This document shows, in pieces, positions 1,047 through 29,516 of a DNA stretch of 64,000 nt. Source of the DNA: a virus. The translations under genes were made by a program, and so were the position numbers. The stretch lies in IMG/VR virus record IMGVR_UViG_3300012931_000002, positions 1-64,000 of that record; one strand, 5' to 3'. A model generated the notes under the pieces. It saw only the letters and a list, made by a program, of their open reading frames with translations. It was not told the origin of the DNA and did no database searches. The first letter of the stretch is position 1; every line of letters begins with the position of its first letter.

Positions 1047-2561
1047 ATGGCCTCCTTAAACCTTCGCGGCAGTGTAGTAGGAACGGCACTTCAAAATCTT
1101 TTGATGTGCGACGAAATCGTTCCCGGCGCTGCGCCGTCCTATCAGCTATGCCGCGAAATATACTGCTACCACGCGTTGGGCAAAAAACTCGTCGACAGCC
1201 CAATCGCGATGGCCCAATCGCAGCCCCGCGAGATCGCGGTCCCGGCCGCGCCGGATCGCGTCGCCGAAGCTTTCGAGGAAGCCTGGAAGAACCTCGGCGC
1301 CGACCGGCACATCGCGAATGTCATGCGGACGTCACGCATCTACGGCATCGGGAGCATCGCGGTCCTCGATGGCGAGGAGACCGACCCCGCGGTCCCTCTC
1401 GACTACGCGAAGATTTCCGATCACCAGCTCTCGTTCAACGTCCTCGACCCCCTGAATACGGCGGGTTCGCTCGTCCTCGATCAGAATCCGAACTCTCCGG
1501 CATTTCAGAAGGTTGAATCGATCTCCGTCGCCGGAAAGCACTATCACCGGAGCCGCGCCGCGGTCGTTTTGAACGAGGACCCGCTCTACATCGAATATAC
1601 GACCTCCGCCTTCGGCTTCGTCGGCCGGTCGGTTTACCAGCGCGCGCTGCTCCCGCTCAAGACCTACGTGCAGTCGATGATCACGGACGACATGATCGTT
1701 CGGAAGGTCGGCGTCCTGATCGCGAAGCAGAAGCAGGCCGGGTCCGCCATCGATCAGGCGATGGCGATGATCGCCGGGCTCAAGCGCTCGCTCCTTAAGG
1801 AGGCCGAGACCGACAACGTCTTGAGCATCGGGCTCGACGAGGACGTCGAGTCGCTCAACTTCCAGAACGCCGAAGGTCCGTACGCCCTCGCGCGGAAGAA
1901 CCTCCTCGAAAACGTCGCAACCTCCGCCGACATGCCGGCGGTGATCATCAACTCGGAGACGTTCGCTGAAGGCTTCGGCGAGGGTACCGAAGACGCGAAG
2001 CGCGTCGCGAGCTACGTCGACCGCGTTCGGATCGAGATGGCGCCCCTCTACGCGTTCTTCGACCCGATCGTGCAGCGCAAGGCGTGGACGCCGGACTTTT
2101 ATAAAACGATCCAGGCCGAGTTCCCGGAAGAGTACGGCGACGTCGACTTCAACGAGGCGTTTTACCGCTGGTCGAATTCGTTCGCCGCCGAATGGCCTTC
2201 GCTCCTCACCGAGCCGGAATCGGAACAGATCAAGGTGGACGACGTCCGGCTCAAGGCGGTCGTCGCTATGATCGAAGTCCTTGCGCCGAAGCTCGACCCC
2301 GAGAACATGGCGATCACGCTTAAGTGGGCGCAGGAGAACTTCAACCAGCGTAAGCTCCTCTTCCAGACGCCGCTCGAACTCGACTTCGACGCCTTGCGCG
2401 AATACGTTCCGCCGGAGCCAGCGAAGGAGCCGGACGCGCCGAAGCCGTTCGCCGATAGCGAGCGCGTCGGGAAGGCCCTTGCGGCTTTAAGCGATGCCGT
2501 AGGGGCGCTTCCGTCTCGGGTAGGGGGGAAGTCTCCGCCGCCTCCGGCGAAGCGCTCTTGA
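1047..2561 (+). CDS. Portal protein (DUF1073-like)
   Basis: Forms the dodecameric channel at the packaging vertex. The 504-residue length fits portal proteins. The middle has the long helical stem-like region with LKTYVQSMITDDMIVRK and a following GVLIAKQK stretch, and an earlier YGIGSIAVLDG turn, as in the DUF1073 portal family. The C-terminus is proline and charge rich and probably disordered. It follows terminase and precedes head genes, the standard portal position. The stop overlaps the next start by 4 bases (TTGA). Confidence 0.8.
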   Translation: MASLNLRGSVVGTALQNLLMCDEIVPGAAPSYQLCREIYCYHALGKKLVDSPIAMAQSQPREIAVPAAPDRVAEAFEEAWKNLGADRHIANVMRTSRIYGIGSIAVLDGEETDPAVPLDYAKISDHQLSFNVLDPLNTAGSLVLDQNPNSPAFQKVESISVAGKHYHRSRAAVVLNEDPLYIEYTTSAFGFVGRSVYQRALLPLKTYVQSMITDDMIVRKVGVLIAKQKQAGSAIDQAMAMIAGLKRSLLKEAETDNVLSIGLDEDVESLNFQNAEGPYALARKNLLENVATSADMPAVIINSETFAEGFGEGTEDAKRVASYVDRVRIEMAPLYAFFDPIVQRKAWTPDFYKTIQAEFPEEYGDVDFNEAFYRWSNSFAAEWPSLLTEPESEQIKVDDVRLKAVVAMIEVLAPKLDPENMAITLKWAQENFNQRKLLFQTPLELDFDALREYVPPEPAKEPDAPKPFADSERVGKALAALSDAVGALPSRVGGKSPPPPAKRS

Positions 2562-2782
2562 GCATCGATTCCGACGTCTCAAAAAGCCTTCGCGAAGCGA
2601 CTCGCGCTTGGCAGCTATTCGAAGCCGGGCTGCAAGCGTTTGGAGCCGCGATCACCCGGCGCGAGTGGGCCGCAGCCGATGCCGAGCGCGAGCGGATCGA
2701 AGCGGCTCTCGACAGTTATCTCGACGCGCTCGCGGCGGCGAATGTCCGCATAGAGTTCGAAGAACGAAGGATGCCCCGATGA
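2558..2782 (+). CDS. Short coiled-coil protein
   Basis: A 74-residue, nearly all-helical, charged protein of unknown function. It uses a TTG start overlapping the portal stop, and its own stop overlaps the next ATG, so it sits inside a tightly coupled operon. No motif is recognised. Its place between portal and head genes suggests a head assembly accessory. Codon use matches its neighbours, which supports a real gene. Confidence 0.5.
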   Translation: MSIDSDVSKSLREATRAWQLFEAGLQAFGAAITRREWAAADAERERIEAALDSYLDALAAANVRIEFEERRMPR

Positions 2783-3174
2783 GCTTTCCGAACAAGCAGA
2801 CGAATCCTGCCGCCGCGATCCCCGTCTACCTCGCGGCTGGGCCGGTCGCGGTCGTCGTACCGACGGAGCCGTTTCCGGAGACGATCGCCGGCAGCGGCTC
2901 CTACGAATCCGGCGTACTGCCCGCGGGCGGTTACCGGAACCTCGCGGCGACGGCGCAGCTTAGCACCGCTGGAACGCTCTCGATTCAGCGCTACTACGAC
3001 GCCGCGGAATCCGTTCCGATCGGGGCGCCAGTCTCCGTCGTCCTTTCGGCGGGCGTCGCGAATTCCGTGACGATTTCCGACGGCGTTCCGTACCTCTTCT
3101 ACGAGGTCTCGATCGCGAATACGGCGGAAACGACCGGAACGCTGACGAACGCGAACATCTTGCAGGGGGCCTAA
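2779..3174 (+). CDS. Small beta-rich virion protein candidate
   Basis: A 131-residue protein rich in Gly, Ala, Ser, Thr and Val, predicted to be beta-strand rich (for example AAGPVAVVV and GTLSIQRYYD). No family is recognised. ATG start overlaps the preceding stop by 4 bases. The composition resembles phage decoration or fibre-type proteins, but this is inference from composition and place only. Confidence 0.5.
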   Translation: MSFPNKQTNPAAAIPVYLAAGPVAVVVPTEPFPETIAGSGSYESGVLPAGGYRNLAATAQLSTAGTLSIQRYYDAAESVPIGAPVSVVLSAGVANSVTISDGVPYLFYEVSIANTAETTGTLTNANILQGA

Positions 3175-3175
3175 C

Positions 3176-3706
3176 GTGGCAGCGCGATTCTCCGGCCCCG
3201 CTTGGTGCTCCGAGTTCCCTTGCTCGACGCTGACGACGAATCTCGCTTCGCCGTTCCGCGAGAACGCCGAGCGCTTCATCGAGGCGCTTCGTAACGCCGG
3301 CGCGTCCGTTACGATCAGCACGACCTTTCGCCCCCCTGAGCGCGCGTATCTCATGCATTTCGCCTGGTTGATCGCGAAGAGGAAGATAGGCCCTGACGAA
3401 GTACCGTCGTATCCGGGGGTCGACGTCGACTGGACGTGCGGCGGTGATGAGACGGCCGCGATCGTCGCGGCGAAGGCGATGGTCGATGCTTATGGGATCG
3501 CTTACCAGCCGACGCTGCGCAGTCGCCATACCGAAGGCCGGGCGATCGACATGACGATTTTGTGGCGCGGGACGAGCGACGTCGTCGACGCGCGGGGCGT
3601 TACGCATTCCTGCTCGAAGCAGGAAGACCTTTGGGCTGTCGGCGCGAGCTACGGCGTGCGCAAGCTGCCGTCCGACCCGCCGCACTGGTCGGACGATGGG
3701 CACTGA
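3176..3706 (+). CDS. M15-type peptidoglycan peptidase (putative endolysin)
   Basis: A 176-residue zinc metallopeptidase of the VanY/M15 fold, cutting stem peptides of the cell wall. Seen are the SRHTEGRAIDM segment (SxHxxGxAxD signature, giving His and Asp zinc ligands) and PPHWSDDGH near the C-terminus for the third ligand. GTG start two bases after the previous stop. No signal peptide or membrane segment is visible, so release would need a holin. It is the only free-standing wall hydrolase seen in the window, and lies about 25 kb from the holin and spanin genes. Confidence 0.75.
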   Translation: MAARFSGPAWCSEFPCSTLTTNLASPFRENAERFIEALRNAGASVTISTTFRPPERAYLMHFAWLIAKRKIGPDEVPSYPGVDVDWTCGGDETAAIVAAKAMVDAYGIAYQPTLRSRHTEGRAIDMTILWRGTSDVVDARGVTHSCSKQEDLWAVGASYGVRKLPSDPPHWSDDGH

Positions 3707-4527
3707 TGGCCTCTTCCAAGTCTGAATCCTACTTCGACGTTCTCACAGCCGCGATAAATGATTTTGTGGAGCACGGCTACGACGATCCAAGCCGTGTCAG
3801 CTACTGGTCCGAGCGCCTGCGCCAGGCCGCTGAACAATCTGCCACGCCGCCGCCGATCATGGACCGAATGATGCGCGAGCAGCTCGTGGCGATCTACCGA
3901 GCTCTGCTCGAGAAGGGTGGCCTGAGCAAGTACCACGGCCGAGTCGATCGTTACACTCTGCAGCGCATCGCTCCCCGGTTGCGCAGCGAACTAGACAGAC
4001 GGATTCTCGCTTCCGCGAGTCTCATCCGTCTGAATCGCGAAGAAGCGATTCAGTTGACTCTAAAACGGTTCCAGGGCTGGGCGACCAGTATTCCAGCCGG
4101 TGGCAGCGAGGCGCTGAGAAAGCAGAGGACGAAGGCCGAGGTGCGCAAGCCGATGGCTAGTCTGCCGTTCGTCGAGCGGCGCGTGCTCATCGATCAGGGC
4201 CACAAGCTCACTGCCGCGATCAACGACATCGTCGCGCAGGATGGCGGTGCGATTGCTGCGATTTGGCACTCGAACTGGAGGCAGGCAGGCTACGACTATC
4301 GTGATACGCACAAGGCGCGTGACGGCAAGGTCTATCTTATCCGCAACTCGTGGGCACACAAGGCCAGTTACGTGAAGCCGGGGAAGGCTGGTTATCTCGA
4401 CGAGATCACGCAGCCCGGCGAAGAAGTCTTCTGTCGCTGCTACGTTTCCTACGAATACGCCATCAGCGAACTGCCGTTGGACATGATTTCTAAGAAGGGC
4501 GCCGAGGCGCTGAGGAAAGTCGCATGA
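3706..4527 (+). CDS. MuF-like minor head protein, copy A
   Basis: A 273-residue head morphogenesis protein. The C-terminal part has YRDTHKARDGKVY and EEVFCRC, matching the Mu gpF-like pattern (His, RDG, then a CRC turn). It is a clear paralogue of the gene at 7081; by eye well over half of residues match, including DVLTAAI, RRILA-ASLI, LKRFQGW and WRQAGYDYR. Codon use differs from copy B and from the rest of the head operon (more CTG, CAG and GCC), suggesting transfer from another phage. It overlaps the next gene by 4 bases. Confidence 0.75.
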   Translation: MASSKSESYFDVLTAAINDFVEHGYDDPSRVSYWSERLRQAAEQSATPPPIMDRMMREQLVAIYRALLEKGGLSKYHGRVDRYTLQRIAPRLRSELDRRILASASLIRLNREEAIQLTLKRFQGWATSIPAGGSEALRKQRTKAEVRKPMASLPFVERRVLIDQGHKLTAAINDIVAQDGGAIAAIWHSNWRQAGYDYRDTHKARDGKVYLIRNSWAHKASYVKPGKAGYLDEITQPGEEVFCRCYVSYEYAISELPLDMISKKGAEALRKVA

Positions 4528-6743
4528 AGTTACTTCGTTACATTGCTGCGTTTGTTCTGGCTGCCAGCGCTGCACTGGCAAACTCCGCGTATCCCAGCAC
4601 GAAGGCACCTGCCACACCGCTGACGCGCGCTAATGTCGCAGTGCTTACGGCTGCACAGGCGGTGTCTGGCACCTACGGCAACGTTCTCGTCAACGAGGAT
4701 GGCTATACCGCAGTCTATGTTTGGCGTGCCTCCGCAAGTCAGACGTGCTCAACACCAAGTTTTATTGCGGCCGACAGTTCTTACATTTGCCCGTCCGACG
4801 CGACACCTCCCGCGACTGGCCGCTGGGTACGCGGGCCAACTGAATCGCCGCCAATAACCGCGGTTACTGGTCTCGGCACCGGCGTAGCGACGGCGCTTGG
4901 GACAAATGTGGGATCGGCCGGGGCGTTTGCGATTGATGGGGCTACCGCAGTCAGCCTTTACAACTACAGCGGAAATCTGACCACGGCTGCGGCCGCAGCA
5001 ACGGCGGCTGGAAAGCCGCTTTTAATCGACATGACCGTTTCGCTGGCGGGCAATACGGTGGTCAATGCGCCAGCGTTTGCGTTTGCCCCAGGAGCAAAAA
5101 TTGTTACTGGTTCATATACGCTTCGCCAAAATGGTCTTCTTTCTGTGCCGGACAACCAGGTTATTTACGACAGCACCGGCACTGGGGTCATCACTCTCCC
5201 ATATAACAACAAGCTTTCAGCCATTTGGTTTGGCGCGGACTACACTGGTGCTACAAATAGCCTCGTAGCGATTACGCGGGCCAGCGCGTCTCTGGACGCA
5301 TCGGTCTCTGCTTCGAACAGCCTGAGCAACGTCACACATGGAGGGACGCTGTATTTTCCGGCAGGCCAGTACAAGTACACCTGCAAGTGGATTTGGGGCA
5401 CCGGGGTAAACTACACCAACATTGTCGGTGACGGGGCACTCGCGACGAATTTTCAGTTCGTTCCGGGCGGGTCGTGTTCGGCGGATGCAGACGGATACTA
5501 CGTCGGGATGCAGTTGCTGATGAGTGGCGGGTCTGGTTATGCGTACAAGCACAATCTTATCGGCATTGGTTTTGGATCGTCCGACACAACCAACCAGAAA
5601 GTCGCCGTTGATTTCGTTGATGTCGGCTCTGTTATGGTCAAGGATATTTTCGTCTATGGTAGTGGTCCTGGGCAGTATTTCCAAGGTGGCACATCCGGAA
5701 GCATTGGTATCCGGATCAAGGGGCGCGACAACTCCGACATCACGGACGCAGTCATGGTCGCACAACGACCGATCTACGTAGATGCTAACCCAAACGAAGC
5801 TGCCACGAACAACGAAGACCTCGACCACTGGAATTTCCACAATTTCCTCTGGTACTGCAAGGGCGACTATCCGGCGGTGCAAATCGCGGATGGGCACGGC
5901 GTCAGCAACGTTTCTTTTGATGGGCGGCACGCGATCGTCGGTTGCCCGACGTTTTTCAAACTCAACGATACGCGGGTTAGCCCGTTGATCAACAGCCGCA
6001 ACATCACATTTAGCAATCTGCGCGGGGAATCCGGAAGCTCGGCCGGTGCTAACTATTGGATCGACCTTGTCGCGGATAGCACTGGGCCGATTGGAACTGT
6101 GTCGCTGCGGGATTCGCTGCTTGGCTCCGGTAACGCTGGCCTTCAGATCACTTCGTACAAAAATTTGCGCTTGGACAATGTGACCCTTGGGCACCCTAGC
6201 ACCTACGCAATCCTCGCCACAATGCCGAGCCAGATTTCCAGCGTAACCATGAACAACGTCGAGTGCGCAGCGACGGTGTTGTTCTCAATCGCAGGCATGG
6301 CGTCAACCTATGTCGGAAATCACAATACGAATTCAGGCTATGCTGGGTGCCCGAATACTGCGGTGTACGCATACAGCCACCCGTCAATCTCCTCGTACAG
6401 AAACCCCCTCTTCGGGTGCGGCGCGGCAGGCGGTACGAGCGGGACGGGAGAGACAAAAGTCTGCGTCTGGAAAGAAACTGTAGCCGCTGGGGTAAGCACC
6501 ATCCTTGGACCGCCGCAGGCCGGATTTAACGCGACCGTTTCGGCGACCGGCGCTACCGCTTCTGAGGCAGGTACATTTTATGGTACATCCAGTGCCGTGA
6601 GTTGCCTGACCTGCACGACCAACATGGCGGCAACTGATACGGCCGGTAAGGTCAGCTTCTTCTACAGCGGATCAAATATATATATTAAAAACAATCTCGC
6701 CGAGAGCATCGTAGTTGTGATAACGATGTACATCGGGTTGTGA
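4524..6743 (+). CDS. Beta-helix tailspike-like protein with N-terminal signal peptide
   Basis: A 739-residue protein. It starts with an export-type signal (MKLLR, then a hydrophobic AAFVLAASAALA stretch, likely cut near residue 20). Residues about 25-110 form a small Cys-containing domain ending ATGRWVRG. From about residue 270 the chain turns into a parallel beta-helix, with GGTLYFPAGQY and NIVGDG typical of pectate-lyase-like phage tailspikes, suggesting surface glycan binding or cleavage. No catalytic residues can be assigned by eye. GC is lower and codon use unlike the core phage genes. A signal peptide on a spike-like protein is odd. Confidence 0.65.
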   Translation: MKLLRYIAAFVLAASAALANSAYPSTKAPATPLTRANVAVLTAAQAVSGTYGNVLVNEDGYTAVYVWRASASQTCSTPSFIAADSSYICPSDATPPATGRWVRGPTESPPITAVTGLGTGVATALGTNVGSAGAFAIDGATAVSLYNYSGNLTTAAAAATAAGKPLLIDMTVSLAGNTVVNAPAFAFAPGAKIVTGSYTLRQNGLLSVPDNQVIYDSTGTGVITLPYNNKLSAIWFGADYTGATNSLVAITRASASLDASVSASNSLSNVTHGGTLYFPAGQYKYTCKWIWGTGVNYTNIVGDGALATNFQFVPGGSCSADADGYYVGMQLLMSGGSGYAYKHNLIGIGFGSSDTTNQKVAVDFVDVGSVMVKDIFVYGSGPGQYFQGGTSGSIGIRIKGRDNSDITDAVMVAQRPIYVDANPNEAATNNEDLDHWNFHNFLWYCKGDYPAVQIADGHGVSNVSFDGRHAIVGCPTFFKLNDTRVSPLINSRNITFSNLRGESGSSAGANYWIDLVADSTGPIGTVSLRDSLLGSGNAGLQITSYKNLRLDNVTLGHPSTYAILATMPSQISSVTMNNVECAATVLFSIAGMASTYVGNHNTNSGYAGCPNTAVYAYSHPSISSYRNPLFGCGAAGGTSGTGETKVCVWKETVAAGVSTILGPPQAGFNATVSATGATASEAGTFYGTSSAVSCLTCTTNMAATDTAGKVSFFYSGSNIYIKNNLAESIVVVITMYIGL

Positions 6744-6759
6744 CGCAACGGAGGTTCAA

Positions 6760-6894
6760 ATGGCACATTCATCGTTGAGATTTTGCCCCGAGTGCGAAGC
6801 GGAATGCTTCGATCCTGAGAGGGGCATCTGTAAAAAGTGCGGCGCCGAACTTGGTCCGAATGCGAAGGCGCGGCCAGATACTGAGGAAAAATGA
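6760..6894 (+). CDS. Zinc-ribbon micro-protein
   Basis: A 44-residue protein with two Cys pairs, CPEC near residue 9 and CKKCG near residue 24, a minimal zinc ribbon. A good ribosome site (CGGAGG) lies 6-8 bases before the ATG. Its stop overlaps the next ATG by 4 bases, supporting translation. It belongs to the compositionally distinct insert. Function unknown; nucleic-acid binding is possible. Confidence 0.6.
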   Translation: MAHSSLRFCPECEAECFDPERGICKKCGAELGPNAKARPDTEEK

Positions 6895-7094
6895 GCGACC
6901 TTGGGCAGTCTGTAAGCCAGTTTCTGCAAATCAACGCTAGCCCATCTCAGATAGAGACGAAGTGGCTGCGCGAATCTGTGCTGGCAGTTTCCATTCTGGC
7001 GCGCCCAGTCGGGATCGGGCTATGCGGGATGGCGCTATCGGCGCCCGGGTTTGTGATAGCATTCTTGGCAGTTTTACCTAATGCCGTCCTCTGA
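6891..7094 (+). CDS. Small membrane protein
   Basis: A 67-residue protein with a polar N-terminal half and a hydrophobic C-terminal half (residues about 30-65), likely one or two membrane passes. It overlaps the preceding gene by 4 bases and the following MuF-like gene by 14. The 14-base overlap lies at the junction where base composition returns to that of the core genome, so the end of this gene may mark the insert boundary. A holin-like role is possible but unsupported. Confidence 0.45.
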   Translation: MSDLGQSVSQFLQINASPSQIETKWLRESVLAVSILARPVGIGLCGMALSAPGFVIAFLAVLPNAVL

Positions 7095-7914
7095 ATCCTA
7101 TTTCGACGTGCTTACCGCCGCGATCGCCGATGTCGCCGAGCACGGTTACGATTCAGCAGAGCGAATCGCATATTGGTCGCAGCGCCTCAAGGAAGCCGCC
7201 GAGCGGACGATGGGTTCCGAGAGTGAAATGGAGCGTCAGCTTCGCGAAGCGCTCCGGGCCGAGTATTCGCGGCTAATCGAACGAGGCGGCATCGCGCAGT
7301 TCCATCAAGGCGTCGCGCGGTTCACGATCGAGCGCATTCGGCCGCAGCTTCGCGCGGAACTCGATCGTCGAATCCTCGCGGCGGCGAGCCTTATCAAGCT
7401 CAATCGGAAGGCGGCCGTCGAAAAGACGCTTCGGCGCTTTCAGGGTTGGTCGACGTCGATTCCGAAGGGCGGCTCCGACGCCGTCGGTAAGCGCGAAGAG
7501 AAGACGGCAATCCGGAAGTCGATGACGGCGCTGCCGTTCGAAGAGCGCCGCTGCCTGATCGATCAGTCGCATAAGCTCGCGTCTGCGATCAACGACATCG
7601 TCGCGACCGACGGCGGCGCGATTGCGGTCGTATGGAAAAGTCACTGGCGGCAAGCGGGCTATGACTATCGCGAAGAGCACAAAGAACGCGACGGCCGCGT
7701 TTACATGATCCGCGGAAACTGGGCTCTCGCGAAAGGACTCGTTAAGCCTAGCGAAGACGGCTACTACGACGAGATAACAGCCTTCGGCGAGGAAGTTTTT
7801 TGCAGGTGTTCGGGGCGCTACCTGTATTCGCTCTCCGCTCTCGCGAAGATCGCGCCGGAGATGATCACGAAGAAAGGCGAGGCGGCGCTCGAAGCCGCGA
7901 GGAAAGCAGCATGA
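7081..7914 (+). CDS. MuF-like minor head protein, copy B
   Basis: A 277-residue paralogue of copy A with the same order of blocks, including LRRFQGWSTSIP, INDIVATDGGAI, WRQAGYDYREEHKERDGRVY and EEVFCRC. Its codon use matches the rest of the head operon, so it is probably the resident gene. In Mu and relatives gpF-type proteins are minor capsid or morphogenesis factors, often near the portal vertex. It overlaps the next gene, which has a signal peptide, by 4 bases, repeating the gene arrangement of copy A. Confidence 0.75.
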   Translation: MPSSESYFDVLTAAIADVAEHGYDSAERIAYWSQRLKEAAERTMGSESEMERQLREALRAEYSRLIERGGIAQFHQGVARFTIERIRPQLRAELDRRILAAASLIKLNRKAAVEKTLRRFQGWSTSIPKGGSDAVGKREEKTAIRKSMTALPFEERRCLIDQSHKLASAINDIVATDGGAIAVVWKSHWRQAGYDYREEHKERDGRVYMIRGNWALAKGLVKPSEDGYYDEITAFGEEVFCRCSGRYLYSLSALAKIAPEMITKKGEAALEAARKAA

Positions 7915-8513
7915 CCATGAAGCGAATCGCCGTAGCGCTCGTTCTTCTCGCCAGTACGCTCCTAAGCCCCCCTGCTTCGGCGGATAAGTATCCGAGCGTC
8001 TACGCGACGCTCGCCGCGATCCCATGCTCGTCCGAAATCGCCTGTACGAACGTCGCGCACGTTCAAGTTAGTACGGTGACAGTTTCCGGCGCGACGGGGA
8101 TGGTTTCGTACGATTGGCACGCGGTCGGCGACGGCCTCTGCGTCGGGAACTATTACCGGCCGAGCGGGTCGGCGACGGGTTGCTTTGTTCCTCTAACGCC
8201 GTCGTCGAGTACGGTCTTTGTGGGAACGCGGGCCGTTTCCGCCGCGACGACGCTTACCGCCGGAGACGGCGTCGTTCTCGTCACGAATTTCGGCGCCGAT
8301 ACGATCATAACGGCGCCGCCGGCCGTAGGCTCGGCGACAGCGATCAAGCGCGTCCGCGTTGAGAAGGTCAGCAGCGATGTGTACTCGGTGATCATAACGA
8401 CCGACGGAGTTACCGAGATCGGTCGCGTAATCAACACGAACGATGACGGCGGGGCGGGCTACCTTGACGTAGAGATGAACGGTACGACGACGCGCGTATT
8501 CGGAATCCCGTAA
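7911..8513 (+). CDS. Signal-peptide protein following MuF copy B
   Basis: A 200-residue protein. The N-terminus MTMKR followed by a hydrophobic stretch and PPASA is a classical Sec signal peptide with cleavage near residue 24; ATG at 7917 is an alternative start. The mature N-terminus begins DKYPS, and the Cys-containing domain ends SATGCFVPL, resembling the same region of the beta-helix protein after copy A (AYPST to ATGRWV). The C-terminal half is beta rich. This looks like the short, resident counterpart of that protein. Function unknown. Confidence 0.6.
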   Translation: MTMKRIAVALVLLASTLLSPPASADKYPSVYATLAAIPCSSEIACTNVAHVQVSTVTVSGATGMVSYDWHAVGDGLCVGNYYRPSGSATGCFVPLTPSSSTVFVGTRAVSAATTLTAGDGVVLVTNFGADTIITAPPAVGSATAIKRVRVEKVSSDVYSVIITTDGVTEIGRVINTNDDGGAGYLDVEMNGTTTRVFGIP

Positions 8514-8580: not shown

Positions 8581-8913
8581 ATGACGGAAGACGGGATGCA
8601 GAGGGCGCTAGGGCGAATCGAAGGCGCTCAAAACCAGATACTCGCCGAGCTTCGTTCGTTCAAAGAAGACTTCGCGGCGCACCAACGGGACAACGCGGAG
8701 AGCTTTCGAAGGGTCGACCAGGAGTTTATTTCGCAGGCCGCAGAGCGCGACGAGCGCCTGATGGCGCAGGACGTAAGTATCGCCGCGCTCGTCAAGGCGA
8801 AGGCCGTCGTCGAAGGGCAGCTAACGCTCGGGCAAAAGATTCTATATATTACGGGCTCGGTCGCCGTCTTCATCTGGGCGGTATTCGCCACGTTCTTCAA
8901 TCATCATTCGTAG
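8581..8913 (+). CDS. Coiled-coil protein with C-terminal membrane anchor
   Basis: A 110-residue protein: residues 1-80 form a charged helix likely to be coiled coil, and residues about 85-105 ([20 protein letters not shown]) form one membrane segment, leaving a very short tail. This layout occurs in phage holin or antiholin-like proteins and in DUF1515-type proteins. It sits in the head operon rather than with the spanins. Lysis timing or infection-stage membrane function is a guess. Confidence 0.5.
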
Positions 8914-9562: not shown

Positions 9563-9581
9563 CGGAACGGCGCTATTCCAA

Positions 9582-11441
9582 ATGATTAAAGCCTCTGGTA
9601 TATTGTTCCGAACTTCCGAGACGCCTCCCCGCGCTTTGTTCCTCAAGCGCGGCGGGCGCGGAGCGTTACCGGGAACGTGGGCCTTTCCGGGCGGCGTCGT
9701 CGAGGACGGCGAAACCGCCGAAGCCGCCGCGATCCGCGAGGCCGAGGAAGAGACCGGCGCCTCCCCGAAGATTTCGAAGGGCCTTACCCTTCTTACCCGC
9801 CGCCTCTCGGTCGCCGAGACGGGCGCGGCGCTTCCGGGCGCTACCGTAGCCCCGGCGGGCGAACCGCCGCCTAGCCCCCCTGGAACGGCGGCTCCGGCCC
9901 CTTTAGCGGTCGATCCTGAAGTCTGCGACTTCTCGACCTTCCTCGTCGCGGTTGAGAAGCCCTTCGAGGTCGTTCTGAACGACGAATCCGACGCCTTTAG
10001 CTGGTGCCCGGTCGACTCGCCGCCGGAACCCCTCCATCCCGGATGCCGGATCGCCCTCGATCGTCCGGCGATGAATGAACTCGACGTCGCCCGCGCGATG
10101 GCCACCGGGGAGCTTTCGAGCCCCCAGCGCTACATGAACGTTTCGCTCTTCGCGATCCGGATCACGGGAACCGGCGCCGCCTACCGACGAGCCCTCGACG
10201 AATACGTCTGGCGCAAGCCGGAAATGTACCTCAACGACGAGTTCGTCGCGCGCTGCAACGGCCTCCAGGTGATCTTCGAGCATCCGGACGGTGCGACCCT
10301 GAACTCGAAAGAGTTCGCGGAACGTTCCGTCGGCTCGATCATGCTCCCCTACGTCATGGGGGACGAGGTCTGGGGAATCGCGAAGATTTACGACGACGAG
10401 GCGATCGGCGTCCTCCTGACGGACCCGATGAGCACGTCGCCGACCGTCGTCCTTTCGCCGGGCAGCAAGACCTATAAAGCCAATGACGGCTCGACCATCC
10501 TCGACGAAAGCGAACCCCTCCTGCTGGATCACGTCGCCATCTGCGCGAGGGGCGTTTGGGACAAAGGCGGCGAGCCGCGAGGCGTGACTTCTGCAACCAT
10601 TGGAGACTCTGACATGACCGAAGAAGAGAAGGCCGCCCTCGCCGCCAAAGCGAAGTCGGACGCCGAAGAGAGCCGCGCGAAGGCGGACGCCGAAGCGGGC
10701 GAGAAGCTCGACAAGCTGCTGACGCACATGGATTCGTTCGGCAAGCGGATGGACACCGACGCCGAAGAGCGCGCCGAACTCGCGAAGCGCATGGACGCCG
10801 TTTGCTCCCGCCTCGACGCGATTGAGGGCAAGAAGCCCGACGCCGAAAAGACGCCGGAAGAACTCGCCGCCGAGAAGAAGGACGCCGACGAAGCCGCCGA
10901 AAAGGAGGCTCAGGCGAAGAAGGACGCTGAGGAAGAGGTGAAGAAGGAAGCGAAAGCTGACTCCGACATCGCCGCGATCAAGTCGGCCGTTGCCGACCTC
11001 GCGAAGCGGACGCCGCGCTCGATGACCGACGCCGACTATTCCGCGCTCGCCGACGCGCAGGCTCGCGCCGACGCGGTGATGAGTATGCACGGCGTTCGCG
11101 CCGGGCGGCCGATGGACGGCGAGACCGTCGACGCCTACCGCCTCCGTCAGGCGAAGGCTTTGCAGGTCCATTCGGATTCCTGGAAGGACGTCGACCTGAC
11201 GAAGATCGCCGATAGTACGGCCTTCGGCATCGCCGAAAAAGCGATCTTCGCCGACGCCGAAGCCGCTGCCCTTCGCCCCGTCAACGGCCCCGCCGGCGAG
11301 CTTCGCCCCGTCGTCCGCGTCGATTCCGAGACCGGGCGCCGGACGACCGAATTCTACGGTCGGGGGACGTTCGTACGCCAGTTCAAGCAGCCGAAACGCT
11401 TGATCGCCGCAACCAACCTCGGGCGCCGCGACCGGGGCTGA
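9582..11441 (+). CDS. Nudix hydrolase - DUF2213-like prohead protease - scaffold fusion
   Basis: A 619-residue three-part protein. Residues 1-150 form a Nudix domain with an exact Nudix box at about 38-60 (GGVVEDG, then REAEEETGA). Residues about 165-335 match DUF2213-type proteins beside DUF1073 portals; FEHPDG and the later STSPTV segment may hold the His and Ser of an S78-like maturation protease. Residues about 345-620 are Ala/Glu/Lys-rich coiled coil, as expected for a scaffold core. The Nudix part is unusual here and might clear modified nucleotides or simply be structural. A nested start inside the gene is listed separately. Confidence 0.7.
   Translation: MIKASGILFRTSETPPRALFLKRGGRGALPGTWAFPGGVVEDGETAEAAAIREAEEETGASPKISKGLTLLTRRLSVAETGAALPGATVAPAGEPPPSPPGTAAPAPLAVDPEVCDFSTFLVAVEKPFEVVLNDESDAFSWCPVDSPPEPLHPGCRIALDRPAMNELDVARAMATGELSSPQRYMNVSLFAIRITGTGAAYRRALDEYVWRKPEMYLNDEFVARCNGLQVIFEHPDGATLNSKEFAERSVGSIMLPYVMGDEVWGIAKIYDDEAIGVLLTDPMSTSPTVVLSPGSKTYKANDGSTILDESEPLLLDHVAICARGVWDKGGEPRGVTSATIGDSDMTEEEKAALAAKAKSDAEESRAKADAEAGEKLDKLLTHMDSFGKRMDTDAEERAELAKRMDAVCSRLDAIEGKKPDAEKTPEELAAEKKDADEAAEKEAQAKKDAEEEVKKEAKADSDIAAIKSAVADLAKRTPRSMTDADYSALADAQARADAVMSMHGVRAGRPMDGETVDAYRLRQAKALQVHSDSWKDVDLTKIADSTAFGIAEKAIFADAEAAALRPVNGPAGELRPVVRVDSETGRRTTEFYGRGTFVRQFKQPKRLIAATNLGRRDRG
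10614..11441 (+). CDS. Nested in-frame scaffold product (putative)
   Basis: An in-frame ATG is preceded by TGGAG about 7 bases upstream and opens exactly at the border between the protease-like domain and the coiled-coil region (MTEEEKAALAAKAK). The product would be 275 residues, almost wholly scaffold-like. Lambda C and Nu3 use the same arrangement: a protease-scaffold fusion plus a scaffold-only product from an internal start. Inference from start context and domain border. Confidence 0.5.
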   Translation: MTEEEKAALAAKAKSDAEESRAKADAEAGEKLDKLLTHMDSFGKRMDTDAEERAELAKRMDAVCSRLDAIEGKKPDAEKTPEELAAEKKDADEAAEKEAQAKKDAEEEVKKEAKADSDIAAIKSAVADLAKRTPRSMTDADYSALADAQARADAVMSMHGVRAGRPMDGETVDAYRLRQAKALQVHSDSWKDVDLTKIADSTAFGIAEKAIFADAEAAALRPVNGPAGELRPVVRVDSETGRRTTEFYGRGTFVRQFKQPKRLIAATNLGRRDRG

Positions 11442-11486
11442 TAGCCGCCGACCACGACTCGAAACTCAAGAAGGAATTGGAAAGCC

Positions 11487-12386
11487 ATGGCTGGCAATAT
11501 CGCGTTTAATCCGAGCGTCACTACGACCGCGTCGGGCAGCTTCAACGTCTCGGCGGACGGCCTTATCCAAGGCACGGCGTTCGACGATCCCGCAACCCGC
11601 TACCGCCTCCGCGGCGGTATCCTCGCGACCGATGAAACGCTCCCGATGTGGGGCGGCGTCGGTATCTATGAACTCGTCACGGGCGCGACGACCGCGAGCC
11701 TCCCGTCGTCGAACCTCGGCGGAACGGTCGGTCGCGCGAATACGCTTACGGCGCAGGCCGCGAAGCAGCTCGTCGGCTTCTCCGTCTTCGATCAAGCGTA
11801 TCACGCGATCAATACTCCGCAGTCGCCGGTTCCGCTCCTCGCGTCCGGAATGTCCGTTAACTACTACCCCCTGGGATCGCTCGCCCGCATCGCCGTCGCG
11901 GCCGATCCTTCGCTGATTAGCCTCGAAGGCGGGATCACGACCCAGCTCGTTTCTTGGGACTTTACCGCTCAACGGTTGATTCCGTATTCGGCGACGTACG
12001 GCGCCGGCACGATCACGGGCGCGGTTTGGGCGAATACCCTCGGCGGGCAGATCGACTACACCGTCAGCACCGACCTGACGTCGTACATCAACGCGGGCGA
12101 CGACATCAACGTGACCGGCGTCGTATCAACCGGCGCGACGACCGACGGCTATAACGGGAACTACGCCGTCGTATCGATTACGTCGACGCACATCGTCGTG
12201 ACGGCCCCGCGTACGGCGTCGCCGGGTACTTACGCGTCCGGCGGGTCGGTCGTCGCCGGTGGCGGCGCGCTTCCCATTCGCATCCTGCGCGTCAAGGCCG
12301 ACAACTGCATGAACGTCAGCTACGATTTGGATACAGGTTTCGCGACCTGGGATCGGAACGGCGCGGGCGCGGTCATTCAAATCTGA
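11487..12386 (+). CDS. Head decoration / structural cement protein with inserted beta domain
   Basis: A 299-residue protein between the scaffold and major capsid genes, the usual position for a capsid decoration protein. The N-terminal 170 residues and the last 35 (ILRVKADNC, SYDLDTGFATW) read as one fold. Between them, residues about 170-260 form a Gly/Thr/Val-rich block (YINAGDDINVTGV, then TDGYNGNYAVVSI) like the E1-FCCH-like beta domains inserted in other phage proteins. Start has AAGGAATTGG upstream. The cement name is by position and pattern. Confidence 0.6.
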   Translation: MAGNIAFNPSVTTTASGSFNVSADGLIQGTAFDDPATRYRLRGGILATDETLPMWGGVGIYELVTGATTASLPSSNLGGTVGRANTLTAQAAKQLVGFSVFDQAYHAINTPQSPVPLLASGMSVNYYPLGSLARIAVAADPSLISLEGGITTQLVSWDFTAQRLIPYSATYGAGTITGAVWANTLGGQIDYTVSTDLTSYINAGDDINVTGVVSTGATTDGYNGNYAVVSITSTHIVVTAPRTASPGTYASGGSVVAGGGALPIRILRVKADNCMNVSYDLDTGFATWDRNGAGAVIQI

Positions 12387-12425
12387 TCGGCGGGTCCGAT
12401 CTTCAACTCTCCGAGGAGATAGTCC

Positions 12426-13445
12426 ATGCCGAATCTGAGTCCCAGCTACTACACCGTCAACCCCTCATATACGCTCCCCGAAATGCTCCTGCCCTACTCG
12501 CAGGCGTCGGGCGCGTTCGAGCTTCTCCCGACCGGCGAACCACTCGTCCGCTTGAGCGAAGGCGACCTCTACGTCTACGCGAATCGGATCGAGCTACGCA
12601 CGAACGTCGCCGCCGGCCAGTCCGCCTACAACGAACTGCCGAGCGTCGGCGTCGCGCTCTCGCAGATTTCGACCGCGACCTACCTACTTCGGGTCCGGGC
12701 GGAATACGATCATCACGACACCGCCGCGATGGGCCGTCGCGGCGTTTCGATCGTCGAAGCGCAGCGCCTCGGTATGCGGCAGGCGCACAACCAGCTACTC
12801 CGCAACATGCTCCTGAACGGTATGAACCCGGCAAACGGCGAGGGAATCCTCAATACCCCCGGCGCCGTCAACGTTACGCTGCCGCCGGACTCGAACGGGG
12901 CGACGACGCTCTCGACGTACGACAACGGCGAGCTTGCGTTCTTCGTCCTCGGTCAAATCCGGGCGATTAAGAGCCGGACGAACCAGCTCGGTCTCGGGAC
13001 GAAGTTTACGATCCTCGGCCCGCAGCAAGACCTCGGCCGGCTCGAATACGACGACATCCTGCAACTGACGCAATTCCAGCGCGAAGGCGCCGGCAGTGCG
13101 ACGACCGCCGGAACCGTCAAAGACATCTTGAAGATGAACGGCGACGAAATCACCTGGGTCTACGACGACACCTTAATCGGCAAGGGCCTCGGCGGAACCG
13201 ACGCGATTATCATCAATATGCCCGAAGTTCAGAAGCCGGACGGCGGGAAGATCAACACGAACACCTTCGCATCGCTCGCGCCGGGCCTCGACGCGTGCGC
13301 GTTGCAGTTGATGGACATGGCGGCTCCCCGCGAGCTTCCGACCCCGCTCGCGGGCGGCGTCACCGACGTCCTGAGCGAACTCCGCGCGACGAGCGGTTGG
13401 GCGCTTCGCCCCGAGACCGTCACGATCATCAGCGCGGCTCCGTAA
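12426..13445 (+). CDS. Major capsid protein (DUF2184-like)
   Basis: A 339-residue HK97-fold-type capsid candidate. The middle contains AQRLGMRQAHNQLLRNMLLNG followed by NGEGILNTPG, the pattern of DUF2184 capsid proteins (long spine-like helix, then GxxGLLN). The C-terminus holds the usual short beta segments. AGGAGA lies upstream of the ATG. A strong terminator follows directly, fitting a highly expressed capsid gene. No N-terminal scaffold domain is present; the scaffold is encoded separately upstream. Confidence 0.85.
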   Translation: MPNLSPSYYTVNPSYTLPEMLLPYSQASGAFELLPTGEPLVRLSEGDLYVYANRIELRTNVAAGQSAYNELPSVGVALSQISTATYLLRVRAEYDHHDTAAMGRRGVSIVEAQRLGMRQAHNQLLRNMLLNGMNPANGEGILNTPGAVNVTLPPDSNGATTLSTYDNGELAFFVLGQIRAIKSRTNQLGLGTKFTILGPQQDLGRLEYDDILQLTQFQREGAGSATTAGTVKDILKMNGDEITWVYDDTLIGKGLGGTDAIIINMPEVQKPDGGKINTNTFASLAPGLDACALQLMDMAAPRELPTPLAGGVTDVLSELRATSGWALRPETVTIISAAP

Positions 13446-13450
13446 AGCTA

Positions 13451-13498
13451 CCGTCCGCAAAGACGGCGGGGCGTGAAACTCGCCCCTTCCTTTTTCGA
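13451..13498 (+). terminator. Rho-independent terminator after major capsid gene
   Basis: Two hairpins in a row: CCGTC/GACGG with a 6-base loop, then a perfect GGGGCG/CGCCCC stem with a 7-base loop followed by TTCCTTTTT. Its place just after the capsid gene suggests partial termination that sets head against tail gene dosage. Confidence 0.8.
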
Positions 13499-13522
13499 CT
13501 ATCTCTGGAGGGAGATTTCCCA

Positions 13523-14053
13523 ATGAAACTTTACGTCGCGAATGCCGCGAAGCAAGTCATCGACCTTACATGCCGAATCCCCGGTCTCGGGAGCCTCTAC
13601 CGGCAGACGATTCCGATCGGCTGCCAGATCGTGGTCGGCGGCGACCTCGACCTTACGCAGGTCAACGAGGTCGTCCGGCAACTCTCCGGCTATGGTCTGA
13701 CGAAGTACGACGAACTCGACCGCGCGAAGCCGTTCGTCGGCCTCTGCTATGCGGTCGACCGGCCGGTTCCGAACAAGCGAATCCTCTTCGCGATGGAGCA
13801 CAACGCGAAGGTTCTCGTCGAACGCGGTAAGGAAATGCGCGCGCAGGCGGCCGTCGCGACGAACAACGCGATCGAGCGGACGCTCGTCGAAGAGGGTCTC
13901 GGGAACATCGAGGCGCTCGACGTGACGGTCGTCGAAGAAGAGAACCGCCACGGGCCGAGCAATCCCGAACCAATCGCCGAAGGGGTCCTCGTGACGAAGG
14001 ACCCGGACATTCGCCCCGGCAAAGGCAACGCGAAGTCGCGCAAGGGCAAATGA
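13523..14053 (+). CDS. Conserved head-neck region protein
   Basis: A 176-residue protein of unknown family. The start is chosen at the ATG preceded by CTGGAGGGAG, the best ribosome site nearby; longer upstream reading would cross the terminator. The N-terminal half is mixed alpha/beta, and the last 40 residues are acidic then strongly basic (GKGNAKSRKGK), probably disordered. The stop overlaps the next start by 4 bases. Position after the capsid suggests a head-completion or capsid-associated protein. Confidence 0.55.
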   Translation: MKLYVANAAKQVIDLTCRIPGLGSLYRQTIPIGCQIVVGGDLDLTQVNEVVRQLSGYGLTKYDELDRAKPFVGLCYAVDRPVPNKRILFAMEHNAKVLVERGKEMRAQAAVATNNAIERTLVEEGLGNIEALDVTVVEEENRHGPSNPEPIAEGVLVTKDPDIRPGKGNAKSRKGK

Positions 14054-14496
14054 CCGTTCCGGCGCCGACGTTCGTAGGATTCCTCGCCTTCGTCCGCAGG
14101 ACGATGGGAATTTCGACGGCCGTCCTTCCGGATTCGGGGACGGTCCTCGAAGACTCCTACGCGCTCGCGCTCGAAACCGTCAACCGCGCGATCCGCGTTT
14201 CGCCACTAAACTACGTCAAGGCGGTCTACAACTTCGCCGGAGACGCGCTGATCAACGAGGCGCCGGATCAGACGGGGCAGACGTTCTTCGCCGATCTTCG
14301 CGAGAAGTGGAACATCCTCGACCCGATCAGCGGCGTCGTCGCGTCTTCCGGCGACGTCTCGACGAACCAATCGCTCGTAGTTCCCGAGCAGTTCTCGACG
14401 CTCACGCTCGCCGATCTTCAACAATTCAAAACGCCTTACGGTCGGGCGTACGTCGCGATCGCGCAACAGTACGGCGCGCTTTGGGGAATCTCGTGA
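14050..14496 (+). CDS. Probable neck / head-tail connector protein
   Basis: A 148-residue protein of unknown family. The N-terminal FVGFLAFVRRTMGI and the following ALETVNRAIR helix, then WNILDPISGVV, resemble small adaptor-type neck proteins that follow the capsid gene in related myoviruses. It overlaps both neighbours by 4 bases. The assignment is by position. Confidence 0.5.
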   Translation: MTVPAPTFVGFLAFVRRTMGISTAVLPDSGTVLEDSYALALETVNRAIRVSPLNYVKAVYNFAGDALINEAPDQTGQTFFADLREKWNILDPISGVVASSGDVSTNQSLVVPEQFSTLTLADLQQFKTPYGRAYVAIAQQYGALWGIS

Positions 14497-14939
14497 TCCT
14501 GCACCTTGGCGTTCTCGAAATCCCGTACAACGAGCCGCCCGCGAAAGGCAAACGGAAGAAGGTCGAAGCGGGAACACAAACGACTGGCGACGTCGCGGAA
14601 TGGCTCGAAAATAAATACAAGATCATGGCGACGTTCTACGAGCGCAATCAGGAAGAGATCGCGCAGCTTATCATAGACGGCCTAGCTGGTACGATCGAAA
14701 GTCTTTCGATGGGCGCGCCGCCGACGATCGACCCCTTTGGAGAAGCTACGAGCGCGATCAAGGATAAGTTTTCGCGCTTCCTCGAATCGAAGGCGATGGA
14801 CGGCCTTGAAGGCATCCCGACGCTCGCCTCGATCGAGGGCGTAAGTCATCGTTTCAAAAACCGCCGCGGAACACCGTATCGCCCGAGCTTTATTGATACG
14901 GGAAACTATGAGAACGCCTTTCAAGCGTGGATCGACTAG
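14493..14939 (+). CDS. Probable neck / tail completion protein
   Basis: A 148-residue protein with a GTG start overlapping the previous stop. The N-terminal third is basic; the middle is helical (LIIDGLAGTIESL), and the end reads RPSFIDTGNYENAFQAWID. Such a PSFIDTG...Y..SF..W ending occurs in phage neck or tail-completion proteins of this gene order. Role inferred from location between capsid and tail genes. Confidence 0.45.
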   Translation: MILHLGVLEIPYNEPPAKGKRKKVEAGTQTTGDVAEWLENKYKIMATFYERNQEEIAQLIIDGLAGTIESLSMGAPPTIDPFGEATSAIKDKFSRFLESKAMDGLEGIPTLASIEGVSHRFKNRRGTPYRPSFIDTGNYENAFQAWID

Positions 14940-14940
14940 G

Positions 14941-15234
14941 ATGGACAAGTTCTCGAAAATAGCTGCACTCGTAGCTAAGGCAGACGCTATAGCTGCCCGC
15001 GCCGACGTCGTAGGGAATAGCCGCGGGATCGGTTATAAGATTCAGTTCGACAATCGCTCCGAATTCTTTACGTCAATCCGAGATTTGCAGGCGTGGGTTC
15101 ACGACATAAAGCGGAAGGACCCATCGGTCATCGGAAAGATCGCGAAGATATGGAAGGGAGAGATTCCACAAGGCAGCGAATACATTTCCTATTCCGGAGC
15201 CCCTACGCAGATAAAAGTCACGGCGGACTATTAG
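14941..15234 (+). CDS. Small protein with KADAIA motif and separate C-terminal module
   Basis: A 97-residue protein. Residues about 7-20 read [14 protein letters not shown], the motif shared with the genes at 774 and 8924, here encoded by different synonymous codons. The remainder (YKIQFDNRSEFF, DLQAWVHDIKRK) is a distinct compact module. DNA is more AT-rich than neighbours. ATG start two bases after the preceding stop; stop abuts the next start. Its placement among neck genes suggests virion association. Confidence 0.55.
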   Translation: MDKFSKIAALVAKADAIAARADVVGNSRGIGYKIQFDNRSEFFTSIRDLQAWVHDIKRKDPSVIGKIAKIWKGEIPQGSEYISYSGAPTQIKVTADY

Positions 15235-16257
15235 ATGCCCTCCGTATCCGAAGCCTCCGGCGACCAGCGGACCCCGCTAGGCGCGGCACTCGCGGCGGGG
15301 CTAGAGAACGTCGCGTATAGCAAGACGGTTACGTTCACGAAGTACGTTCGCCTCGTCCTCCCGCTCGACGGCTTCGTGTTCTGGGTCAAGTCCGACCTCA
15401 TATCGAACGGGGCGCTCTTAAACGGAGACCCCCTGAACGTCGCCGCCCCGGATCAGGGGGGTTCCGTCCTTACCTCGGCGGCGACTATCGTCGCGAAGGG
15501 TTCGCTGCACTATTCGACGGAGGCGCGGCAGAACGAGAGCGAAGGGTCGAGCGTCAACCGGATCGTTTTTACGTCCGAGGTCGAAATAAACGACCTTAAC
15601 GTGACCGGGCCGAACGAGATTTACATTGCCGAAGTTGGCGGCGTTCGTTTTGCCTTTTCTTCGCAGGATTCGCGGTATCGGCAGTCTGGGCTTTGGCACT
15701 ACGGCGGAACCGCCGTCTACGCGGACACGGCTTCACAGATCGTCGACGCCTTGGACGGCTTCAATACGGCCGCGGTCGTCTCGAATAGCCTCCCGATTTG
15801 GCTTTCGATGAACGGCCTTCCGGTCGTCGATTGGCAGCCTCTTCGGAATCCGGTGACGTTCTACCCGTCCTTCCTCGTTCCTGGAAACTTCGTCCCGCCG
15901 TTCGCGGCCGTCCACGTCGAGAATACGCGCGGGATCGCTTCCGCTGCTACGCTAGGGCCGACGCTTTCGCATTCGCAGCTCGCTACCGAGCGTGTCCGTG
16001 TAACGACCTACGGCCTTCGGAACGCCGCCGCGCAGGACTTCGTCGACTTCGTCTGCCAGTTTTCGCTCGATACCGATTTGATCGGGATTATGAACATTCC
16101 GATCGTCCGCGACGAGAAGAAGACGCAGGTCGAACTCGGAGTCCTTGCGCAGAAGAAGGTCGTCGAGTTCGACGTCAGCTACTACCAAACGGCCGCGCGC
16201 GACGTCGCGCGGAAGCTCATCATCTCCGCCGTCCCGACCTTCATCTTTACCGACTAG
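15235..16257 (+). CDS. Virion structural protein upstream of sheath
   Basis: A 340-residue protein with a long conserved-looking C-terminal half (DFVDFVCQFSLDTDLIGIMN, then KKTQVELGVLAQKKVVEFD). This pattern is found in uncharacterised structural proteins adjacent to DUF3383 sheaths. It may be a tail terminator or neck protein. The ATG directly follows the previous stop. No enzymatic motif is seen. Confidence 0.5.
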   Translation: MPSVSEASGDQRTPLGAALAAGLENVAYSKTVTFTKYVRLVLPLDGFVFWVKSDLISNGALLNGDPLNVAAPDQGGSVLTSAATIVAKGSLHYSTEARQNESEGSSVNRIVFTSEVEINDLNVTGPNEIYIAEVGGVRFAFSSQDSRYRQSGLWHYGGTAVYADTASQIVDALDGFNTAAVVSNSLPIWLSMNGLPVVDWQPLRNPVTFYPSFLVPGNFVPPFAAVHVENTRGIASAATLGPTLSHSQLATERVRVTTYGLRNAAAQDFVDFVCQFSLDTDLIGIMNIPIVRDEKKTQVELGVLAQKKVVEFDVSYYQTAARDVARKLIISAVPTFIFTD

Positions 16258-26150: not shown

Positions 26151-26561
26151 ATGGCATCCGTTCAATCTAACCCCGGCTGGCTGCTCGGATACGTTCCATC
26201 ACCGGCCGAGTGGGCTGCGGCGTTCTCAGGAAAGCAAGACGCGCTGCTCTCGAATACGTCGGTAAGCGCCGACGCGACGATCCTCGATACGGCGTGCAAG
26301 GTCACGGTCGATACGAGCGCAGGCGACGTCGTTCTTCGCTTCAATCCGACTTCCGGAACAAGCATCCTTCAAAATACCGTCCGCGTCGTCAAGCGTAGCG
26401 CAACCCCGAACGCGAACATAGTCTACATTACGCTAGACGGAGTCGCTGCGAACGCGGTCGCGACCATTACGACGGAAAATGGTTCGGCGGGGGCGAACGG
26501 CGCCGGATTCATGATCGTCGACGCGAACGGTTCGACGATCGAGGCGTACGGCGTAAGCTGA
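26151..26561 (+). CDS. Tail fibre-related small protein
   Basis: A 136-residue beta-rich protein. It begins with GYVPSPAEWAAAFSGKQDAL, a short motif common at the start of phage tail-fibre modules. The rest resembles fibre shaft or tip beta structure (GDVVLRFNPTSG). Located among baseplate genes, its final base overlaps the next ATG. Likely a small baseplate-fibre connector. Confidence 0.5.
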   Translation: MASVQSNPGWLLGYVPSPAEWAAAFSGKQDALLSNTSVSADATILDTACKVTVDTSAGDVVLRFNPTSGTSILQNTVRVVKRSATPNANIVYITLDGVAANAVATITTENGSAGANGAGFMIVDANGSTIEAYGVS

Positions 26562-28946: not shown

Positions 28947-28950
28947 GCAA

Positions 28951-29325
28951 ATGAGTAGCATCGGTGAACTCGCGTCGAAGGCAAAAGAAGTGCTGGTTTC
29001 TATCGGCAGTACGCCGCAACCAGAAGACCCGATGTTCGTGAAAATTACGCGTTCGGCCGTGCTCTGGATGTGCGGTATCACGCTGCTTTTTATGGGATGC
29101 TGGTCCGCGTATAAGGGCGATGGCATAATCGGAACGGCAGTCATTGCGTCGGTAACGGTCATTGCCCAGCAATTCGGCTCGCAGCGTACCGACGAAAAGA
29201 AGGCCGCATTCCTTGCCTCGACCGAGGACAAGAAAACCATCACGGGCGCCGCAACGATCGACAAACAAACGGCCGCAACTGCTTCGTCAACCGACAAGCA
29301 GACCGCGGCCATAGCAGGAGAGTAG
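28951..29325 (+). CDS. Membrane protein, holin candidate
   Basis: A 124-residue protein (an ATG at 28936 would add five residues). Residues about 35-72 hold two hydrophobic stretches (AVLWMCGITLLFMGCW and GTAVIASVTVIAQQF) around a short turn, then a polar tail with repeated TxDKxT segments. Two membrane helices and the place just before the spanins fit a holin. Codon use changes here relative to tail genes. Confidence 0.55.
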   Translation: MSSIGELASKAKEVLVSIGSTPQPEDPMFVKITRSAVLWMCGITLLFMGCWSAYKGDGIIGTAVIASVTVIAQQFGSQRTDEKKAAFLASTEDKKTITGAATIDKQTAATASSTDKQTAAIAGE

Positions 29326-29326
29326 C

Positions 29327-29479
29327 ATGACGAACAAAGTGACGGAAATCGTGAACGAAGCCGGCGAGAACTGGGGCACCTTCCGCAAGTGGCTGTCCCG
29401 CAATCCGCTGACCGGGTTTTGGTCCGGCGTCGGCGGTACGGCGGTAGTCATGGGTGTATTATGGGGGCTGCTCGGCTGA
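29327..29479 (+). CDS. Small membrane protein, lysis cassette
   Basis: A 50-residue protein with a polar N-terminus (VTEIVNEAGENWGTFRKWLS) and one hydrophobic C-terminal segment from about residue 30 (TGFWSGVGGTAVVMGVLWGL). GGAGAG lies upstream at suitable spacing. It sits between the holin candidate and the inner spanin, so it may be a second holin or antiholin. Confidence 0.55.
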   Translation: MTNKVTEIVNEAGENWGTFRKWLSRNPLTGFWSGVGGTAVVMGVLWGLLG

Positions 29480-29516
29480 TCCGAAACCAACCCGAATCGT
29501 AATCAGGGGGTCCGTC

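Follow-up and report, generated by a model that had tools for sequence, protein, structure and literature searches.

A second, imported MuF gene and predicted exported tail-like proteins in the head operon of an uncultivated myophage

Why would a phage carry two genes of the MuF head-morphogenesis family in one head operon, each followed by a gene whose product begins like a secreted protein? The question is raised by a virus record of IMG/VR totalling 67,728 bases, of which 64,000 bases were analysed here (the window; Table 1) and which, by profile matches of the window genes, belongs to an uncultivated myophage. Relatives have the gene order portal, MuF, NUDIX/protease, capsid, with the MuF and protease genes usually almost touching, and both copies in the window, here MuF A and MuF B, are likewise located after the portal gene. 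The genes that follow them are called spikeA and secB, respectively, and the loci used for comparison carry L numbers. An initial annotation had read MuF plus secreted-protein gene as a unit imported from a related phage and left as a tandem duplication. We find that the import holds and that MuF alone is doubled.

Table 1. Features of the window. Alignment z values are relative to letter-shuffled sequences and should not be read as E-values.
Feature	Position	Strand	Evidence and remarks
Portal gene	1047..2561	+	phrog_146 4.6e-49; PF06381; codon z +2.6, native composition
Small protein, start 'FPN.Q...AAAIPV'	2779-3174		Also in L012, and near MuF in L021
M15/VanY-like peptidase gene, probable endolysin	3176..3706	+	64% identity to L008 counterpart (best segment); VanY match sub-threshold only; codon z -0.3, native
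Foreign segment (MuF A, spikeA, two small ORFs)	3630..7084	.	Maximum-scoring segment and tetranucleotides
MuF A, imported head-morphogenesis gene	3706..4527	+	phrog_324 8.1e-27; 273 aa
spikeA	4524..6743	+	739 aa; signal peptide, then an N-terminal module as in tailspikes, then a pectate-lyase-like body
Predicted Sec signal peptide of spikeA	4524..4580	+	19 aa; simple rule, score 4.81
N-terminal module of spikeA	4581..4830	+	Common to L008, L094 and the tailspike of Pseudomonas phage KT1
PF12708 (pectate-lyase-like) match	5229..5462	+	20.9 bits, below the cut-off of 27
Zinc-ribbon-like ORF	6760..6894	+	44 aa; sub-threshold zinc-ribbon matches; codon z -5.9, foreign composition
ORF with hydrophobic C-terminus	6891..7094	+	67 aa; overlaps MuF B start; codon z -6.0
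MuF B, resident head-morphogenesis gene	7081..7914	+	phrog_324 1.9e-24; 277 aa; native composition
secB	7911..8513	+	200 aa: signal peptide, N region, C-terminal domain as in baseplate-region protein
Predicted Sec signal peptide of secB	7911..7982	+	24 aa; simple rule, score 5.49
Putative holin-like protein	8581..8913	+	110 aa, hydrophobic C-terminal segment; homologue is the gene just upstream of the secB homologue in L094, alignment z 8.8 / 9.5
NUDIX/head-maturation protease fusion	9582..11441	+	Usual MuF neighbour in relatives
Major capsid protein; sheath; baseplate hub; wedge; tail fibre	12426; 17249; 22491; 24726; 27204
Baseplate-region protein, virion-type (no signal peptide)	26151..26561	+	Carries the secB C-terminal domain, alignment z 9.2

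Both MuF ORFs lie where they had been annotated, match phrog_324, are full-length, and are 60% identical over 263 residues. The gathering score of PF04233 (29.6 bits) is reached by neither, as MuF A scores 16.8 bits and MuF B gives no match, so that family membership is assigned from phrog_324 and gene order. Of the 41 strongly conserved MuF residues, MuF A retains 39 and MuF B 40. Both proteins end just past the MuF core, with no toxin domain fused C-terminally, and none of six proteins searched matched a PADLOC anti-phage defence profile. Each copy joins the next gene through the same 4-base overlap that had been pointed out, ATGA in both, and the single MuF of phage record L008 does so as well.

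At a threshold of 1e-10, two MuF ORFs occurred in none of 104 MuF-bearing loci, whose lengths reach about 17 kb, or 25 kb in one case, and many of which are near-identical. Searched with MuF B, each of ten whole records gave a single match and no second MuF. A search of a phage collection returned two MuF places each in phages RothC and RothD, and the second place in RothD, which was examined, is a short ORF with the MuF core only, beside a repressor gene, not a full tandem copy. This core-only ORF of Klebsiella phage RothD (L147, 16644-17078) adjoins the CI repressor gene, and similar core-only matches are found in five other Klebsiella phages. Homing-endonuclease-like genes, recognised by eye, are present at L020 8813-9592, L004 5807-6586 and L019 10486-11319, in or near the MuF-to-protease interval, and the interval thus accepts other cargo too.

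The two copies differ sharply in composition. The foreign segment has its best left edge at 3630 (3589-3763) and its best right edge at 7083 (7054-7193), and scores 207 against 38 for the next best; since the segment model was trained on the block itself, this score is partly circular, whereas the other composition tests are not. The tetranucleotide correlation of 3706-7080 to the rest is 0.43 (0.38 with a wider reference), while the minimum among 105 equal-size windows outside the block is 0.80, making the block the most deviant part of the window. MuF A alone correlates at 0.53; among 140 outside windows, two match this, and both belong to a second stretch of foreign composition described below. 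The relative abundance rho(CA/TG) is 1.09 in the block versus 0.55 elsewhere. As the initial annotation had stated, codon use deviates in MuF A (z -5.8), spikeA (z -14.0) and the two small ORFs, and is typical in MuF B (z -1.0), as it is in the neighbouring secB (z -1.5) and M15-like gene; however, some native genes stray as well, namely the tail fibre gene (-5.0) and 20059-21681 (-4.7). Codon use alone is therefore not decisive, and it is the tetranucleotide and CpA tests that identify the block as foreign.

The window as a whole has a very strong CpA/TpG shortage, at the ratio given above for the sequence outside the block, and a CpG excess of 1.59. The nearest CpA/TpG ratios among the measured loci are only those of L004 (0.57) and L021 (0.65), and in the 50 loci L097-L146, of which 48 come from bacterial genomes or MAGs and two from the L008 record, the ratio is never below 0.78. 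A host search by RNR did not identify the host: of 289 genomes of one class, 112 contain relatives, at no more than 56% identity. The second foreign-composition stretch, 28521-29995, takes in the 3′ portion of the tail fibre gene together with a holin-like ORF and the larger part of a spanin-like gene pair, pointing to a joint exchange of fibre tip and lysis genes. In this pair, the Rz-like gene 29454-30104 matches phrog_4952 and weakly phrog_2536, and a lipoprotein-type ORF (29821-30042) lies inside it in another frame, an arrangement resembling embedded Rz/Rz1 genes. Rz, Rz1 and holin are presumptive names throughout, given on sequence appearance, except for the weak spanin-type PHROG match of 29454-30104.

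Trees of the two copies tell the same story as composition. In a tree of 42 MuF rows, kept from 91 once near-duplicates had been removed (L002 trimmed to 280 residues, L097-L111 absent), MuF A and the only MuF of L008 are sisters (support 100/100), and a sister relation of MuF A and MuF B is rejected (p-AU 0.0008); A, B and the L008 MuF form a weakly supported group (72/89). By best segment, identity to L008 is 70% for MuF A and 57% for MuF B, next to 59% for the portal, 56% for the major capsid protein, 56% for the sheath (its long segment), 57% for g18885, 55% for the wedge, 55% for g14050, 49% for the hub, 49% for g11487 and 30-46% for several others, the M15-like gene standing above all of these except MuF A (Table 1). 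The divergence of MuF B from L008 is thus that of the portal, capsid and sheath genes, so that B looks like the resident orthologue and A like the newcomer. L008 itself is excluded as donor by a third-position identity to MuF A of only 0.50, and synonymous divergence between the two is near saturation (dS 1.5); to judge from these sequences, the source of MuF A looks like a phage nearer to L008 than the present phage is. L008 is also the relative with a single unit for which a search had been suggested, with one MuF followed by one signal-peptide gene. This phage, therefore, has two full-length MuF genes of different descent, and a block of about 3.4 kb was recently acquired from an unsampled L008-related phage between the M15-like gene and MuF B.

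Two other histories of the doubled gene have to be weighed against this import. An internal doubling of MuF, followed by compositional drift of copy A, would suit the identity between the copies and their weak grouping with L008, but it is at odds with the firm sisterhood of A and L008, with the rejection of A and B as sisters and with the sharp composition edges, and we regard it as very improbable; the copies are neither each other's closest relatives nor equal in composition, the pattern that the initial annotation had named for simple duplication. Even more improbable is that MuF B is the newcomer and MuF A native: A is indeed the copy closer to the nearest relative, L008, but it is B, unlike A, that has the composition of the genome and a genome-typical divergence from L008. 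Import from a related phage beside the resident minor-head gene fits the composition, the tree and the ranking of identities to L008.

The genes behind the two MuF copies do begin alike, as had been claimed, in that each product has a signal-peptide-like start, called by a simple hand-made rule (n-, h- and c-region plus cleavage site) rather than SignalP. Read from the longest start, 11 of the 314 window ORFs of at least 60 aa pass this rule at any score; for secB, whose longest ORF begins further upstream, scoring started at the ATG of 7911. Signal-type N-termini occur in all five members examined of the spikeA and secB families (spikeA, secB, one protein of L008 and two of L094), with scores of 3.77-5.49, the L008 protein reaching only 3.77. 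The further claim of a similar Cys-containing domain in both secreted proteins did not survive: the pairwise z is 0.9, 61 of 300 shuffles reach the score, and the profile-profile probability is 0.3%. Homology of spikeA and secB was accordingly rejected, the mature N-terminal parts being without detectable likeness by shuffle test and profile-profile comparison. Since the secreted genes are not detectable paralogues, the event is better termed a tandem xenologous duplication of MuF than a tandem duplication of a two-gene unit.

In spikeA, the predicted signal peptide is directly followed by a module of 85 residues that aligns with proteins of L008 (z 21.0) and L094 (z 16.2) and with the KT1 tailspike (z 13.7), where it sits about 185 residues in, ahead of the body; L008 and KT1 compared directly give a weak z of 2.6. 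Profile searches found no virion anchor family in spikeA. A beta-helix body, as named by the initial annotation, is suggested by the one sub-cut-off Pfam match, the AlphaFold model being too poor (pLDDT 35). The L008 counterpart has the same start and a C-terminal part matching a GDSL esterase (2.8e-10, above cut-off), and it matches a phrog tail-fibre profile weakly (4.5e-4); the C-terminal parts of the two proteins are not clearly related (z 1.7). No whole-protein relatives of spikeA were found in viral contigs or the phage collection, a scan of genome contigs with the module gave no match, and a PDB sequence search gave nothing useful. L094 was reached by module alignments only, and its two proteins homologous to secB and spikeA have no relatives in the phage collection.

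The protein secB resembles a different tail protein. Its C-terminal domain recurs in the baseplate-region protein of the window (g26151) and in the L008 counterpart of that protein (z 12.6), and an AlphaFold model of this domain from three sequences was too poor (pLDDT 47). One full-length relative was found, in L094 (39% identity), and no whole-protein relative in viral contigs; no virion anchor was recognised in secB. Judged by sequence, both post-MuF proteins have a signal-peptide-like start and otherwise consist of tail modules.

Their neighbours are of the lysis type. L094, which comes from an 89-kb contig and has no MuF match, carries a run of adjacent genes: Rz-like, Rz1-like (a lipoprotein), one for a membrane protein homologous to that of 8581-8913, the secB homologue, the spikeA homologue and two further signal-type genes. 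Its fibre is homologous to that of the window (z 14.3). In L008, the signal-peptide gene is followed by a holin-like gene and an Rz1-like gene, the latter homologous to that of L094 (z 18.1). These neighbourhoods indicate that signal-type tail-like proteins accompany lysis-type genes in unrelated phages. In L021, a CpA-poor phage, a signal-type protein of 1941 aa (9563-15388) lies several ORFs past MuF and is followed by a signal-type ORF at 15390-16052; placement therefore varies.

Based on these findings, we consider it probable that a recent import together with MuF brought a member of a mobile late cassette of Sec-exported, tail-derived surface proteins into the head operon. Conserved stretches where the M15-like gene ends and where the MuF genes begin probably served the exchange, and an exact 11-base match between the two MuF starts is suggestive of this. 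MuF A would owe its presence to this use of conserved sequence close to the MuF start, and it may be a passenger or a second working head protein; at the other end, the 67-aa ORF may have been cut by the junction. SpikeA and secB would be made late with the head proteins and exported by Sec; their target would be the host envelope or surface glycan, reached from the periplasm or, at lysis, extracellularly, and they would not be parts of the virion. SpikeA might cut or bind surface polysaccharide, helping progeny to leave debris or blocking re-adsorption, and the attachment of rivals may be hindered as well. Against export, a Sec-exported spike would still have to pass the outer membrane.

The rival view of function is that spikeA and secB are ordinary virion tail proteins whose hydrophobic N-terminus is no working signal. 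The spikeA module in the KT1 tailspike, the secB domain in the baseplate-region protein and the weak tail-fibre match of the L008 protein favour it; however, signal-type N-termini run through every family member examined, neither protein has a recognised virion anchor, the genes lie in the head operon or, in L094, adjoin spanin-like genes, and the phage already has a fibre gene at 27204, so we hold this view to be rather unlikely. It is also unlikely, in our estimate, that the import is real and spikeA and MuF A are a decaying, functionless passenger: the block is recent and unameliorated, no second case occurs among the 104 loci, and the 67-aa ORF overlaps the junction, but both large ORFs are intact and the conserved residues of MuF A are nearly all retained, which recency alone could explain.

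The reading that we prefer, import with export, has partial counterparts in known systems. Both copies resemble the MuF family in profile and position; what sets them apart is that a single phage has two in full length, with separate descent. As in MuF polymorphic toxins (PMC3482391), where accessory domains or genes accompany MuF, there is an accessory gene, but in this phage it stands on its own, with a product predicted to be exported, and MuF has no fused toxin domain. SpikeA resembles tailspikes and depolymerases such as that of KT1 in its module and its sub-threshold pectate-lyase-like stretch, but has a signal peptide in place of some 185 other N-terminal residues, and its gene belongs to the head operon. 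WceF of Pantoea stewartii (PMC7949094) is likewise an exported tailspike-like glycan enzyme, likened by description and not by sequence, but it is a bacterial gene product with a Tat signal from a biofilm operon. Lys44 of phage fOg44 (PMC6116005) is a late phage enzyme exported by Sec as proposed here; endolysins of this type lyse peptidoglycan, and profile searches found no such domain in spikeA or secB.

More tentatively, and short of an even chance in our judgement, phages may possess exported counterparts of tail proteins in general, in which a Sec signal replaces the virion anchor, which spread with lysis genes between unrelated phages with their bodies swapped (pectate-lyase-like, GDSL esterase or other), and which strip or mask receptors late, so that progeny escape and rivals cannot bind. 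Such proteins are not named as a class in the literature searched, a body to which most subscription papers did not belong.

In conclusion, this locus captures cargo that has entered a phage head operon and has yet to drift in composition, its edges being located to about 150 bases, and indicates that cargo import can incidentally double a core head gene. If the export reading is true, secreted tail-derived proteins would constitute a late phage function otherwise annotated as tail fibres or hypothetical proteins.
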